The notes under the pieces: generated by a model
Databases searched by the model: none
What the model was told of the DNA's origin: nothing
Seen by the model: only the letters and a program-made list of their open reading frames with translations
Program-made: the position numbers and the translations under genes
Assembly: GCA_035546775.1 (NCBI GenBank)
Contig: DASZWD010000001.1
Coordinates: 1 to 58,726, forward strand
Length of the DNA stretch: 58,726 nucleotides
DNA from: Acidimicrobiales bacterium
Lineage (GTDB): Bacteria; Actinomycetota; Acidimicrobiia; Acidimicrobiales; JACCXE01
Reading direction: 5' to 3'
Part shown: positions 22,486-27,808 of the stretch, one piece after another
How the letters are laid out: every line of letters starts with the position of its first letter
Position numbering within the stretch: position 1 is the first letter of the stretch

Positions 22486-23159
22486 CAGTCGAGGGGCAGG
22501 CAGGTCTCGCAGAAGCGTTGGCCGAACGGGGTGAGCTCGATCGAGCGGTGCTCGGTGCGAGGTGAGCGGCCGGCGCGTTTCATCGCGTCGATGACGTCGG
22601 GCTGCGCTTCGAGCAACTGGTAAACGGACGGATCCGCCACCTGTTCCTTGCTGAACCAGATCAGGCGCAGGCGCTCCAGGTTCGCCAGCTCGACCGCGGT
22701 GTCGTCCTGGTTGCGCACGCCGGCGTAGAGGCCGATCATCGACAGCCCCGACGCCACCTTCTCCGAGCCGCGCCCCATCGGCCGGTTGGTGCGCACGTCC
22801 ACCGACGGCTGCGGTCCGTTCTTGTAGAGAAAGCGCAAGATGCGCGCCTCGTCGGGCACGAGCTCCTGGAGCACGTGGGTGAAGGCCGGGTGGACGCCGT
22901 CCTTGTACGACACGTCGGCGGAGTCGCGCAGCAGCTTCGCTCCCATGTCCTGGAGCTCACGCAACCGTGACGAAGCAGTCGGCGCCGGTGGCTTGACCGG
23001 CCGCGGATCCTCGACGAAGCGACGCAGTGCCTCGCGGTTGGTGTCGAGCGCCCACCGCACCGTGCTTTCGGCCGCCGTGCGGGCGATGCGCGCCAGGCCC
23101 GGCAGCATCTCGGCGATCTGCTCGGCCGTCGTCTTCTCCGGTGGCGTGGCGTCGCTCAT
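22485..23159 (-). CDS. DUF4393 (Abi-alpha-like) domain protein
   Basis: 224 aa. The central segment LRELQDMGAKLLRDSADV followed by GVHPAFTHVLQELVPDEARILRFLY fits the DUF4393 family, whose Pfam entry is linked to abortive-infection proteins. The C-terminal half (LANLERLRLIWFSKEQV, IELTPFGQRFCETCL) looks like a winged-helix readout domain. No transmembrane segment is visible. I chose ATG at 23159, which overlaps the stop of the DUF445 gene by 4 bases; a longer start inside that gene is unlikely. The strict coupling to a membrane protein suggests a cytoplasmic partner of it. Role in phage defence is possible but not shown. Confidence 0.65.
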   Translation of the reverse strand: MSDATPPEKTTAEQIAEMLPGLARIARTAAESTVRWALDTNREALRRFVEDPRPVKPPAPTASSRLRELQDMGAKLLRDSADVSYKDGVHPAFTHVLQELVPDEARILRFLYKNGPQPSVDVRTNRPMGRGSEKVASGLSMIGLYAGVRNQDDTAVELANLERLRLIWFSKEQVADPSVYQLLEAQPDVIDAMKRAGRSPRTEHRSIELTPFGQRFCETCLPLD

Positions 23160-24457
23160 ACGCCGAAGATGAACAGGTGGAGGAGGCCGGCGCCGAAGCC
23201 GAGCACGGCGCCGTGGAGGAACAGGAGCCACTCGTCGGAATGGATGGCCGACCGCAACAGTTCGGCGAAGTCGTGCGGTGACAGCTGCTGCATCTGACCG
23301 CCGACGAACTCCGAGATGCGCTTGGCCTGCTGCTGGTTGAAGTCGGCGTCGCTGAACGCCGAGCCGAAGTTCGTCACCTCGGTGGCCAACGATTCCTTGA
23401 TGCGGTCATATTCGCGCGTGCCGACGGCGACGCGCACCGCGCCCTTCGCCGGACCGATGGCCTTGTCGGCCGCCGGCGACAGCACGTCGCGCAGCATGCG
23501 GTGCGTGCGGTCCGAACGTGGCCCGTTGAGCAGCTCGTTGCCGACGTTCTCCAGGTTGATGACGTCGTTGGCGATGATGTCGGCGAAGACCAGCGACGCC
23601 TCGGGCTGGCGTTTGATGAACAACCCCTGGAGGGTGAAGGGCCCGATCTTGCGGGGCTCGACGGGTTCGAAAACGGCCCACACCGCGATGAAGTTGACGA
23701 CGTAGCCGATGACCACGCCGCCCACCGGCAGCACCCACCAGTGCGGGAACGCCTGCAGTACGAACACCAGCAGGAGGCCGAGCGGCACGCCGAAGTAGAA
23801 GCCCGAGTTCTTCATGAACCGCAGCTCCTTCTTGCCGATCTCGAGGAAGACGGCGTTCATCTTCTCCGGGTGATCGTGGAAGTAGCGGATGATCATGAGC
23901 TTGGCGTCGATGAGCTGGTCGACGTGGTTGCCGAGTTCGGCGGTGATGCCGCGGATGATGTCGGGCAGCTGCGCGTCGATGCGGGCGAACACCGACTCCT
24001 TGACCGCCGGCGGCAGGTCGCGCCATAACCGCGGGTGCTCGCGCCGCATGATCTCCTCGACGATGCCGCGCAGTTGCGGACGGGCGACGTTGGTCAGGTG
24101 CTCGGCGATCTTGTCCGGTTCGAGCTCGCGGTAGAAGTCACCGATTGACCCCACTTTGAGCAGTGCTTTGTCCGTGGCGATCGACGCCATCTTCTCGACG
24201 CGTGACGGCACGATGCCCTGCCACCCGAACCGCCCGTCCTTCGAGATCGCCGGGATGACCTGCACGCGCCGGGGTAGCCACGGCCACAGCAGCTTCAATC
24301 CCGGCACGCGGGTGCCGTAGAACCGGATCGGCTGGAAGAGCATGAGCACGCCCGACCAGTTCGTGATGTAGCCGATGGCCCCGGTGAACAGCGGCACGGT
24401 GACGAGGTCGATGACGAACTTGTGCGCCTCCGGCACGTGCACGATCGCCCCGAGCAT
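23156..24457 (-). CDS. DUF445 family membrane protein
   Basis: 433 aa. It has a hydrophobic N-terminal segment (TVPLFTGAIGYITNWSGV), a large helical cytoplasmic or periplasmic region, two central transmembrane helices (GVPLGLLLVFVLQAF and VGGVVIGYVVNFIAVWAVF), and a C-terminal one (GAVLGFGAGLLHLFIFGV). The repeated ITNW/VNFIAVW-type motif followed by FxP is the DUF445 signature. Function is unknown; the B. subtilis homolog YheB is likewise uncharacterised. It overlaps the DUF4393 gene downstream, suggesting a membrane complex. Confidence 0.82.
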   Translation of the reverse strand: MLGAIVHVPEAHKFVIDLVTVPLFTGAIGYITNWSGVLMLFQPIRFYGTRVPGLKLLWPWLPRRVQVIPAISKDGRFGWQGIVPSRVEKMASIATDKALLKVGSIGDFYRELEPDKIAEHLTNVARPQLRGIVEEIMRREHPRLWRDLPPAVKESVFARIDAQLPDIIRGITAELGNHVDQLIDAKLMIIRYFHDHPEKMNAVFLEIGKKELRFMKNSGFYFGVPLGLLLVFVLQAFPHWWVLPVGGVVIGYVVNFIAVWAVFEPVEPRKIGPFTLQGLFIKRQPEASLVFADIIANDVINLENVGNELLNGPRSDRTHRMLRDVLSPAADKAIGPAKGAVRVAVGTREYDRIKESLATEVTNFGSAFSDADFNQQQAKRISEFVGGQMQQLSPHDFAELLRSAIHSDEWLLFLHGAVLGFGAGLLHLFIFGV

Positions 24458-24531: not shown

Positions 24532-26745
24532 CTATGGCTGCGGGTACGAGACGAAGGCGGTCTGCTGCAGGTTGTCCAGGCGCGTCACGAGCAGGCCCTG
24601 TGCGGTCGTGAAGTACAGGTGGTCGCCGATGACGACACTGCGCTCGATGTTGGGCTGGCCGTACTGGCCGTTGGCCGGGGCCTGCGCCCGGCCGACTTCG
24701 CTGATCGACGAGTCACCAACGTGCATCCCGATGGCGCCGTTGAACGCCTGCGACGACGGGGTCGAGCCATCCGGCGTCGTGTATCCGCCGTAGGTCTGCA
24801 ACGGGACGACGGCGAGCTTCGTCGCGGGCCAGTAGAGGAAGGCGTGGTGGTCGAAGTTGCCCGCCGCGCCCGAGAAACCGGTACCGAAGTCACTGCGCGC
24901 CAGCAGCTTCGGGCTGGTCGGGTCGTGCACGTCGTAGAGCGACATCTGCACGCCGTCGGGTTCGCCCTGCTTGACCTCGGCGCCGACGGCGAGCAGCAGC
25001 CCGTCGCTGATCGGATGCAAGTAGGCCGAGTAGCCCGAGACTTCGAGCGACCCGGTCACCCGCGGCTTGGTCGGGTCGCTGAGGTCGACGACGTAGAGCG
25101 GGTCGAACTGGCGGAAGGTCACGACGTAGCCGACCGGTCCGATGAAGCGCACGGCGTAGATGCGCTCGCCCTTGCCGAGACCACCGACCTGGCCGACGGG
25201 CACCAGCGCGCTGCCCGAGTCGCCGAGCACGGTGACGAAGCTTTCCGATCCGTTGCCGGCGTCGGTGGTGGCGACCCGCAGTGCGCCCTTGTACTCCGAC
25301 ATCGAGAACTGGTTGAGCACGGTGCCGTTGACGCGTCCCGACTCGCGGTAGACGGCCTGCACCGGGTCGCTGATGTCGAAGGCGTGGATGAGGGTCGACG
25401 ACGAAGGGGCGAACGAGTTGCTCGCCGGCGTCACGCTGCTCCAGGCGTTGGTCGCGACGTAGACCCGCGTGTCCGATGCGTAGACGATGTCGCCGTCGCC
25501 CATGACCGACGCCGCCCGGGTGTAGGACGGGTTCTCGGTGTTGAAGCTCAGCACGCTCAGCATGCCGAAGCCGGAGAACTGCGGCGGGTGGTAGCTGTCA
25601 CCGCAGGCGAACGTCTTGCCTGTCTGCTCGCGGCCGCTGGCGTCAGTCGCCGTGTAGTGCGGGAGCCACACGTCAGCCGCCGCGCCGCGGATCACTGACG
25701 CATTGTGCTCCTTGGCCGCCGCCTCGGCCTCGGTGGTGCCGTCCTGCGGATACGAGAACGTGAGGTTGGGGCTCGAGCGCACGACGAGGCGGGCGACGCC
25801 GTTGACCGTGCGCGCCGACACGTAGGAACCGTCCACGTCGAGGTGACCCGTGACCTTCATCGCTTTCGGGTTGGAGACGTCGACCACGGTGAAGCGCGAC
25901 TGGCTCGAAGTGCCGCCGCCTGGATAAGGCGACGCCACGTCGCCGCCGGCCATCGGGCGAGCGACAGCTCCACCTGAAGCGGGGTAGTAGACCCCACCGG
26001 GCGACACGACGATGAGGCGGTCGGCGATGCGCAGCATCTCGGTGGCGCCGTCGACAGCGAGTGACCCGAGCAGCTGCGGGTTGTCGCCCGCCGAGGTGGC
26101 GAACACTCTGCCGTTGGCGATCTGGTACACGGTGTGGCCGTCGGTCTTGACCGAATCCGGTTCGTCGATGCCCGCCTCTTGCACGTTGGTGTCGGAGTAC
26201 GCCGGCGCCGAAGTGCTGGACTCGGCCTTGGGCGCGGCGGTGTCGCCGCTGGCGGTACCGGCGGCGTTCGCCATCATCCGCTGATCCGTGATGCCGACGG
26301 TGCCCACACCCGGCAGGCCGTTGGGCCCGACATCCTTCAGCGCCTGCGCCTTGGCGTAGCTGGCCAAGGTGCCGCACTGGTTGAACGGGACGAGCCGCGT
26401 CGAGGCCAGGTACACCTTGGTGTTCCCGTCGAGGGTGGTCGGCGTTGTCGCGCCTGGCGTCAGCGTTGACGACGTGGTGCCGAGCGCCCGCCGCGACACG
26501 GCGTCGCGGCCGTTGCCGTCGCCCACGTTGAGGGCGGCGACGATGCCGGCGAGCACCATCACCGTCGCCGCGATGGTCGTCAGCGCCCGCGGGTTGCGGT
26601 ACAGCGGCACGACGGTGGGCGCCGGCGCCGGGGAAGACGCGTCGGCGCTGGCGGCGGCGAACACGTCATCGGCGCCGCGGGCATCGCCGCGCGCCGACAG
26701 GCGCCGCAGCCGGTCGGTCCAGCCTGACGGAGTTGGGTCACTCAT
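24532..26745 (-). CDS. Membrane-anchored beta-propeller protein, probable anti-sigma partner
   Basis: 737 aa. The layout is: a cytoplasmic stretch of ~50 residues (WTDRLRRLSARGDARGADDV), one transmembrane helix at ~54-73 (LTTIAATVMVLAGIVAAL), a Ser/Thr-rich spacer, and a large extracellular region matching the secreted C-terminal beta-propeller family (PF09826): repeated blades such as VVDLSDPTKPRVTG, YDVHDPTSPKLLA and FDHHAFLYWPATKLAVVPL. The ATG at 26745 overlaps the ECF sigma gene by 8 bases. The topology (inside tail, TM, outside sensor) and the coupling point to an anti-sigma factor with a propeller sensor. No zinc-binding anti-sigma motif is visible, so this role is inferred. Confidence 0.8.
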   Translation of the reverse strand: MSDPTPSGWTDRLRRLSARGDARGADDVFAAASADASSPAPAPTVVPLYRNPRALTTIAATVMVLAGIVAALNVGDGNGRDAVSRRALGTTSSTLTPGATTPTTLDGNTKVYLASTRLVPFNQCGTLASYAKAQALKDVGPNGLPGVGTVGITDQRMMANAAGTASGDTAAPKAESSTSAPAYSDTNVQEAGIDEPDSVKTDGHTVYQIANGRVFATSAGDNPQLLGSLAVDGATEMLRIADRLIVVSPGGVYYPASGGAVARPMAGGDVASPYPGGGTSSQSRFTVVDVSNPKAMKVTGHLDVDGSYVSARTVNGVARLVVRSSPNLTFSYPQDGTTEAEAAAKEHNASVIRGAAADVWLPHYTATDASGREQTGKTFACGDSYHPPQFSGFGMLSVLSFNTENPSYTRAASVMGDGDIVYASDTRVYVATNAWSSVTPASNSFAPSSSTLIHAFDISDPVQAVYRESGRVNGTVLNQFSMSEYKGALRVATTDAGNGSESFVTVLGDSGSALVPVGQVGGLGKGERIYAVRFIGPVGYVVTFRQFDPLYVVDLSDPTKPRVTGSLEVSGYSAYLHPISDGLLLAVGAEVKQGEPDGVQMSLYDVHDPTSPKLLARSDFGTGFSGAAGNFDHHAFLYWPATKLAVVPLQTYGGYTTPDGSTPSSQAFNGAIGMHVGDSSISEVGRAQAPANGQYGQPNIERSVVIGDHLYFTTAQGLLVTRLDNLQQTAFVSYPQP

Positions 26746-27253
26746 TGCGTGCTCCTTCGACTTCGGCGCGCAAGCGCCGGCGCGCACGCGCCGCGCGCGT
26801 GCGCGCCGCCTGCTCGGTGATGCCGAGCGTGCTGGCGGCTTCGGCGTAGGTGCCGCCCTCGACCTCGACGATGAACAGCAGGGCGCGATCGTGCGGGTCA
26901 AGGCGCAGCAGGTCTTGCCAGTCGCTGTCGTACTGCGGCGCCTGGCCTTCGTCGACGCGGTCGAGGCGGGCGAACGCGACGCGGAAGCGCGCCAGCGACC
27001 GGCGCCGGTTGGCGGCGAGGTTCACGATGGCGCGGCGCAGGTAGGCGCCGGCGTCGTCGAGGTCGACGAGGCGGTGGGTGCGCAGGGTGCGGGCGACGGC
27101 CTCCTGCACGAGGTCGTCGGGCTCAACGTCGACAGGCCCGGTGACCGCGGCGAACGCCCGCAGCGATGGATAGATGGCGGCGAACAGCCCCGCGTCGTCT
27201 CTTGGGTCGTCCAACGGCCCCGCCCCTCGCTCCGCCACCAGAACAGCTTGCAT
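26738..27253 (-). CDS. ECF-type RNA polymerase sigma factor
   Basis: 171 aa. Region 2 is at residues ~22-85 (IYPSLRAFAAVTGPVDVEPDDLVQEAVARTL, with LDDAGAYLRRAIVNLAANRRR) and region 4 near 118-165 (LDPHDRALLFIVEVEGGTYAEAASTLGITEQAARTR in pieces). It directs transcription of a regulon controlled by the downstream propeller protein. The region 2.2 segment PDDLVQEA and the C-terminal Arg-rich helix (RTRAARARRRLRAEVEG) are typical. The ATG at 27253 is close to the divergent phosphatase gene; an auto-activated promoter is expected in this 30-40-base gap. Confidence 0.88.
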   Translation of the reverse strand: MQAVLVAERGAGPLDDPRDDAGLFAAIYPSLRAFAAVTGPVDVEPDDLVQEAVARTLRTHRLVDLDDAGAYLRRAIVNLAANRRRSLARFRVAFARLDRVDEGQAPQYDSDWQDLLRLDPHDRALLFIVEVEGGTYAEAASTLGITEQAARTRAARARRRLRAEVEGARNE

Positions 27254-27292
27254 TACTCAGAAGACACCGCAGCGGTCCACTATGTGACCGAG

Positions 27293-27808
27293 ATGTCCTG
27301 GCTTTCCGAACGGTCGCGCAACGGCGGCATCGACGAGGTGCCTTTGCCCGACCCGTCGTGGGGCCGGCTGTGGCTGTGCGGCAAGCACTTCGTCGGCCCT
27401 GACCCCGAAGGGGCGCTGGCCCGCACGCAGGCGGCCGCCATCGTGTGCCTCAACGAGGGCTACGAGTTGTCGGAGCGCTACCCCGACTACGTCGAGTGGT
27501 TGGTGGCCAATCGCGGCGGCCGTGCCGTTTGGGCGCCGTGGCCGGACATGCACGCGCCGCCGGTGGAGGACTTCGCTGCGTTTCTCGACACGCTGAAGGC
27601 GCGACTGACGCAGGGCGAGGGCCTCATCGTCCACTGCGGCGCCGGTATCGGCCGCGCCGGCACCACGGCCACCGCGCTGCTGATGGACCTCGGGCTGTCG
27701 CTGCGCGACGCGCTCAGTGCGGTGCGCGCCGCGCGGCCGGCAGCGGGTCCGCAGACGGCTGAGCAGGACGCGCTGCTCGAGCAGTACGCGTCTCGGCTCG
27801 GTCGCTGA
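27293..27808 (+). CDS. Dual-specificity/tyrosine protein phosphatase-like protein
   Basis: 171 aa. The catalytic P-loop HCGAGIGRAGT (HCX5R(S/T)-type) lies near residue 112, and the general-acid Asp is probably in WAPWPDMHAPP. The N-terminal half forms the DSP fold (WLCGKHFVGP, IVCLNEGYEL). It hydrolyses phosphoester bonds on proteins or small substrates such as phosphoinositides; the target is unknown. The start is ATG at 27293; GTG at 27284 is also in frame. Divergent from the ECF sigma gene, it might belong to the same regulon. Its last 95 bases overlap the 3' end of the MFS gene on the other strand. Confidence 0.85.
   Translation: MSWLSERSRNGGIDEVPLPDPSWGRLWLCGKHFVGPDPEGALARTQAAAIVCLNEGYELSERYPDYVEWLVANRGGRAVWAPWPDMHAPPVEDFAAFLDTLKARLTQGEGLIVHCGAGIGRAGTTATALLMDLGLSLRDALSAVRAARPAAGPQTAEQDALLEQYASRLGR

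Follow-up and report, generated by a model that had tools for sequence, protein, structure and literature searches.

Tt-TolB of Thermoanaerobacter tengcongensis has been proven to act as an anti-sigma factor, with a tail of 39 residues through which it binds its ECF sigma factor (PMC3397946), and CnrY holds its cognate sigma factor by wrapping two helices around it (PMC7406223). RsgI proteins are anti-sigma factors of the membrane, several of which, sensing different substrates, are found within one organism (PMC12203970, PMC4711584). The pair of genes described here lies in a stretch of 58,726 nucleotides from an Acidimicrobiales bacterium (contig DASZWD010000001.1), referred to as the window, in which an ECF sigma factor gene is followed by a gene for a single-helix membrane protein with a large propeller. 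From sequence, this propeller protein is best read as one member of a class-specific sigma/anti-sigma family that combines a minimal tail with interchangeable outer modules.

The sigma factor and its partner in the window

The sigma factor of the window has an ECF layout, with Pfam matches to region 4 (Sigma70_r4_2, 35.5 bits against a cut-off of 25.7; Sigma70_r4, 27.1 bits against 24.1) and to region 2 (Sigma70_r2, 22.8 bits, slightly below the cut-off of 24), and with neither region 1 nor region 3. A profile of 17 of its relatives (A1) matched solved ECF sigma factors over both domains. The nearest named family is the SigE family of Actinomycetota (TIGR02983), of which it is not a member (49.3 bits against a cut-off of 141.55). 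The stop of the sigma gene and the start of the partner gene both fall within ATGAGTGA, so the two genes overlap by exactly 8 bases, as the original prediction had stated.

The partner is composed of an inner tail of ~52 residues, one helix and a propeller (PF09826, Beta_propel) that is matched over model positions 1-494 of 495 (Table 1). Pfam and hydropathy thereby bear out the earlier description of an ECF sigma factor with a partner made up of a ~50-residue tail, a single helix and a PF09826-like propeller. The AF2 model of the partner has a pLDDT of about 90 across most of the PF09826 domain, and the best PDB alignments of this domain are to eight-bladed propellers, the designed Tako8 (Z 17.2, 295 residues, 3.8 A) and, with Z up to 15.9, the eight-bladed BamB; as modelled, the propeller is probably eight-bladed and located outside the cell. 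A reported function for the PF09826 family was not found in the literature.

Table 1. Position of the sigma/partner pair, its predicted elements and its neighbours in the window
Feature	Position	Strand	Evidence
Predicted autoregulatory promoter, TCACATAGT-N11-GTGTCTT	27261..27287	-	Shared motif, leave-out score
ECF sigma factor gene, 171 aa, sigma2 + sigma4	26738..27253	-	Pfam; profile against solved ECF sigma factors
Overlap of 8 bases, ATGAGTGA, sigma stop and partner start	26738..26745	-	Sequence
Putative membrane anti-sigma factor with propeller ectodomain, 737 aa	24532..26745	-	Pfam; architecture in 53/54 relatives
Tail core GWTDRLRRLSARGDARGADDVFAAASAD, residues 9-36, RG two-helix motif, proposed sigma-binding element	26638..26721	-	Motif, leave-out profile
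Single transmembrane helix, about residues 54-72	26530..26586	-	Hydropathy maximum 2.27, strongest hydrophobic 19-mer
PF09826 propeller, residues 183-725	24571..26199	-	Pfam, 407.2 bits (cut-off 22.4)
Dual-specificity/PTP-type phosphatase	27293-27808	+	
DUF445 membrane protein	23159-24457	-	36 bits, barely above cut-off
Abi_alpha (PF14337, abortive infection alpha)	22488-23231	-	161 bits

The inner tail and its outer modules across Acidimicrobiia

The sigma group, collected by a genome-collection scan and local profiling, comprises 54 distinct members. It is clearly set off in a scan of the class, where the best relatives scored 77-145 bits and none of the others above 55, and when 396 genomes across the phylum were scanned, E<=1e-20 was reached only in genomes of the window's class. 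The records of the relatives are mostly labelled Acidimicrobiia or unspecified Actinomycetota; the sole record labelled 'Acidobacteria' (L120) and L072 are one and the same locus, from a genome of the window's class. The group is thus apparently confined to Acidimicrobiia; a divergent pair (L122) is carried by the cultured relative Aquihabitans sp. G128. The gene following the sigma gene encodes a short tail, one hydrophobic helix and an outer part of highly variable length in 53 of the 54 members, a recurrence from which it follows that the coupling is not due to chance; the one sigma gene without a partner (L108:4540-5052) is the second sigma of its locus. Partner starts, picked by script in these 53 relatives, overlap the sigma stop by 1-17 bases in 50 cases, mostly by 4 or 8, and lie 1 base (two cases) or 43 bases (one case) past it in the other three. 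The search across genomes that had been proposed with the original prediction therefore found the gene pair conserved. There is no conserved operon past the pair, the following genes differing in the two other loci with a PF09826 partner (L076 and L123). In-frame fusions of sigma factor and tail, sought as evidence of contact, were not found, and fused matches from Microbacterium were rejected as such because they belong to another group and carry a zinc-type domain.

Across the sigma partners, the tails share the consensus LxxxLxxLAxRGxPRGAxxVLxxAxxxA, with the first arginine of the motif present in 51 of 53 tails and the first and second glycines in 48 each. Leave-out profiles, trained solely on tails less than 50% identical to the tail tested, rank 49 of the 53 above all 999 shuffles, while four tails deviate; the window tail reaches 32.5 bits, and none of its 999 shuffles exceeds 9.5. 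The conserved core spans about 30 residues; class I anti-sigma domains, which are recognised by profile, consist of four helices and in a published survey span no fewer than 50 residues, with a mean near 100. AF2 predicts two helices in the window tail (residues 6-18 and 25-37) around the RG turn, at low pLDDT and for a single chain modelled without the sigma factor, and again predicts two helices in the tail that bears the largest of the orphan outer domains (cluster of L107), whose own model is unusable (mean pLDDT 50). A profile of 35 tails gave 23 matches at E<=0.001 in 198 genomes of the class, of which 21 lie directly behind a sigma gene of the window group and the remaining two, within an AAA-type protein and a SelA-like protein, are chance matches. 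Tail and sigma factor thus co-occur and, at the sensitivity of the profile, are not found apart.

Residues 1-52 of the partner include neither Cys nor His, which makes a zinc motif impossible in the tail. Pfam gave no match to a zinc (ZAS/zf-HC2) anti-sigma domain or, at E<=1, to RsgI_N in the partner, nor to any anti-sigma domain in full proteins or tails; the tail has no NCBIfam match, and the tail profile, which at 30 residues has little power to detect distant relation, matches no PDB chain. The earlier claim that the tail is free of zinc and anti-sigma motifs accordingly holds for catalogued domains and has to be amended for the family-specific RG two-helix motif.

There is a substantial chance, if somewhat less than an even one, that the partner is an anti-sigma factor whose domain has simply diverged from class I or from the CnrY-like class II and so represents no separate type. 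CnrY likewise wraps its sigma factor with two short helices (PMC7406223), as many as AF2 places in the tail at low confidence, and other SigE-family sigma factors of Actinomycetota have coupled partners with tails of 37-45 residues that share at most a weak helix-1 pattern. Against such a descent, no sequence relation was found between the tail and any anti-sigma domain in Pfam or the PDB, and alignment of the RG tail with the wider actinobacterial tails gave an hhalign probability of 5%, which does not establish homology and comes from a 30-residue profile of low power. About as likely, the RG tail is instead a separate minimal ECF anti-sigma class of about 30 residues, peculiar to Acidimicrobiia, that serves as a universal plug for unrelated outer modules and by which envelope proteins were repeatedly made into sigma-controlling sensors. 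A published account of the RG tail was not found; the main ECF classification (10.1093/nar/gkaa1229), which lay outside the comparison, may already describe the group.

The idea that the propeller defines the type was rejected, as PF09826 forms the outer part in only 3 of the 53 partners. The other outer parts include propellers of the Reg_prop, kelch and BNR types, an alpha/beta hydrolase, LytR-CpsA-Psr, tandem PASTA and cytochrome c domains, and several orphan types. The exchange is sharpest between L087 and L096, in which the sigma factors are 83% and the tails 74% identical and the outer parts, a hydrolase in L087 and a Reg_prop-like propeller in L096 (assigned via its relative L079), do not align. 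Among sigma pairs at 45-55% identity, about 1% have outer parts with recognisable likeness. Since the same tail bears many outer parts, the propeller would be one of several putative sensors that can replace one another. The contrast between a conserved tail and an exchanged outer part is the strongest argument that it is the tail, not the outer protein, that works with the sigma factor.

The same evidence bears on an improbable explanation, that the sigma factor is co-transcribed with an envelope protein that is its target and makes no regulatory contact, the pairing reflecting no more than an operon. Ordinary envelope proteins (LytR-CpsA-Psr, hydrolase, cytochrome c) do occur among the outer parts, and PF09826 proteins are widespread as stand-alone lipoproteins, but what is conserved with the sigma factor is the inner tail and not the outer protein, and those PF09826 relatives that stand alone carry a lipoprotein signal in place of the tail, the tail being found only beside a sigma factor of the window group.

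Cell-wall ligase domains of the LytR-CpsA-Psr type are carried on sigma-coupled tails in L101:3467-5065 (+) and L108:3435-4562 (+), which suggests either an enzyme serving as sensor or an enzyme under sigma control. A cytochrome c domain on such a tail (L078:3471-4169, +) is a possible redox sensor, and two PASTA domains (L105:3444-4175, +) are a possible sensor of cell-wall fragments.

The PF09826 lipoproteins of Acidimicrobiia share the propeller family of the window partner at about 40-45% identity, with a lipoprotein signal peptide in place of its inner tail and helix and no window-group sigma gene beside them. Nearly all of the nearest homologues in the class with a readable start begin with such a signal peptide, and among 29 nearest homologues examined, none has a sigma gene of the window group within 1.5 kb. 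The sigma factor and a PF09826 partner are adjacent in two genomes of other families (L032/L076 and L033/L123), and the three propellers linked to a sigma gene group as a single clade amid lipoproteins in a tree (SH-aLRT 99). This single clade suggests one capture from lipoproteins, so that the PF09826 propeller was, judging from the tree, probably captured once.

The promoter-like motif and neighbouring genes

A motif, TCACRAAN-N11-GTGTCTT, is common just upstream of the sigma core among the sigma relatives. Leave-out motif models, trained solely on sigma factors less than 60% identical, recover it in 34 of 52 upstream regions at p<=0.01, and the window copy (score 19.5, reached by 0 of 200 shuffles) is among the best of the 52. 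Its right element ends 7 bases before the ATG of the sigma gene, so that the transcript would be nearly leaderless, and its position fits self-activation of the sigma factor. The strict pattern occurs at two sites in the window's own genome, the intergenic one being that of the sigma operon and the other lying inside a coding region. Across 198 genomes, a stricter pattern gave 3 matches against 4 in the control, and prediction of a regulon from it is therefore uninformative. In genome G174 (pair L062; L219), a motif copy stands some 40 bases ahead of a gene whose product is a secreted propeller protein of the PQQ-like kind, a single anecdote that makes this gene a candidate sigma target.

The phosphatase gene is divergent from the sigma gene, and the two starts are about 40 bases apart, which places the predicted sigma promoter inside the shared gap. 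On the other side, some 75 bases separate the end of the propeller gene from the start of the DUF445 gene; no DUF445 gene is found beside the pair in L076 or L123. The Abi_alpha gene lies downstream of the pair and the DUF445 gene, in the same direction.

Proposed mechanism and comparison with described systems

The partner is very probably a membrane anti-sigma factor in which the tail is the sigma-binding part and the outer sensors are interchangeable. Computation shows that the genes are coupled, that the tail is conserved along with the sigma factor and occurs exclusively with it, that outer modules are exchanged, that the propeller was probably captured from lipoproteins and that a promoter-like motif is conserved; physical binding, inhibition, the direction of control, the release mechanism, the signal and the regulon we infer. 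By analogy with proven systems, the tail would hold the sigma factor at the membrane until a signal from outside frees it. Two short helices around the RG turn would clamp the ECF sigma factor there, and the single helix would link the tail to the outer propeller, which would receive an envelope signal. The tail would then release the sigma factor or be cleaved, and the freed sigma factor would transcribe genes, its own operon included, from TCACRAAN-N11-GTGTCTT promoters. Site-2 proteases are present in the window's genome and likewise in every control genome, and thus give no support for cleavage.

It is highly improbable that the partner, rather than inhibiting the sigma factor, regulates it positively or recruits it to the membrane, for although conservation and coupling do not give the sign of control, and an activating or sigma-stabilising role would conserve the pair alike, the known proven membrane partners of this shape (Tt-TolB, RsgI, the RseA/RsiW type) inhibit, and an anti-sigma gene that lies downstream of its sigma gene and overlaps it is the usual order.

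With the partner read as an anti-sigma factor, the suggestion of a little-described type survives in part, in that the pair is conserved, the tail matches no catalogued domain and the partner is most simply an anti-sigma factor, but Tt-TolB is a precedent (PMC3397946). The 53 natural pairs, one tail with differing outer domains, make the minimal sigma-holding element directly testable and allow one to ask how outer domains turn into sensors. They also offer a short portable tail for engineered sensing, and a proposed regulatory role is now attached to three members of PF09826.

Within Actinomycetota, sigma factors of the SigE family (TIGR02983; L186-L208) have coupled partners as well at most of the loci sampled, with tails of 37-45 residues, one helix and no zinc motif, and these tails lack the RG motif of the window group. 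CnrH/CnrY (class II, defined by two short helices that wrap sigma4 and sigma2) has a short two-helix anti-sigma element before a membrane helix, to which the two helices predicted with low confidence in the window tail may correspond; no sequence relation to the tail was found, and CnrY is not known to carry a large propeller. In Tt-RpoE1/Tt-TolB, as in the window, an ECF sigma gene is followed by a gene for a short tail, one helix and a large outer domain (PMC3397946); the system comes from a different phylum and has a TolB-type outer domain in place of PF09826, so the likeness is one of architecture. SigI of Clostridium thermocellum is not an ECF sigma factor of the window group, and RsgI has its own N-terminal domain, which is unmatched in the window partner, yet the RsgI proteins, paralogous membrane anti-sigma factors, resemble the window family in that a common inner part is joined to differing outer sensing modules (PMC12203970, PMC4711584).
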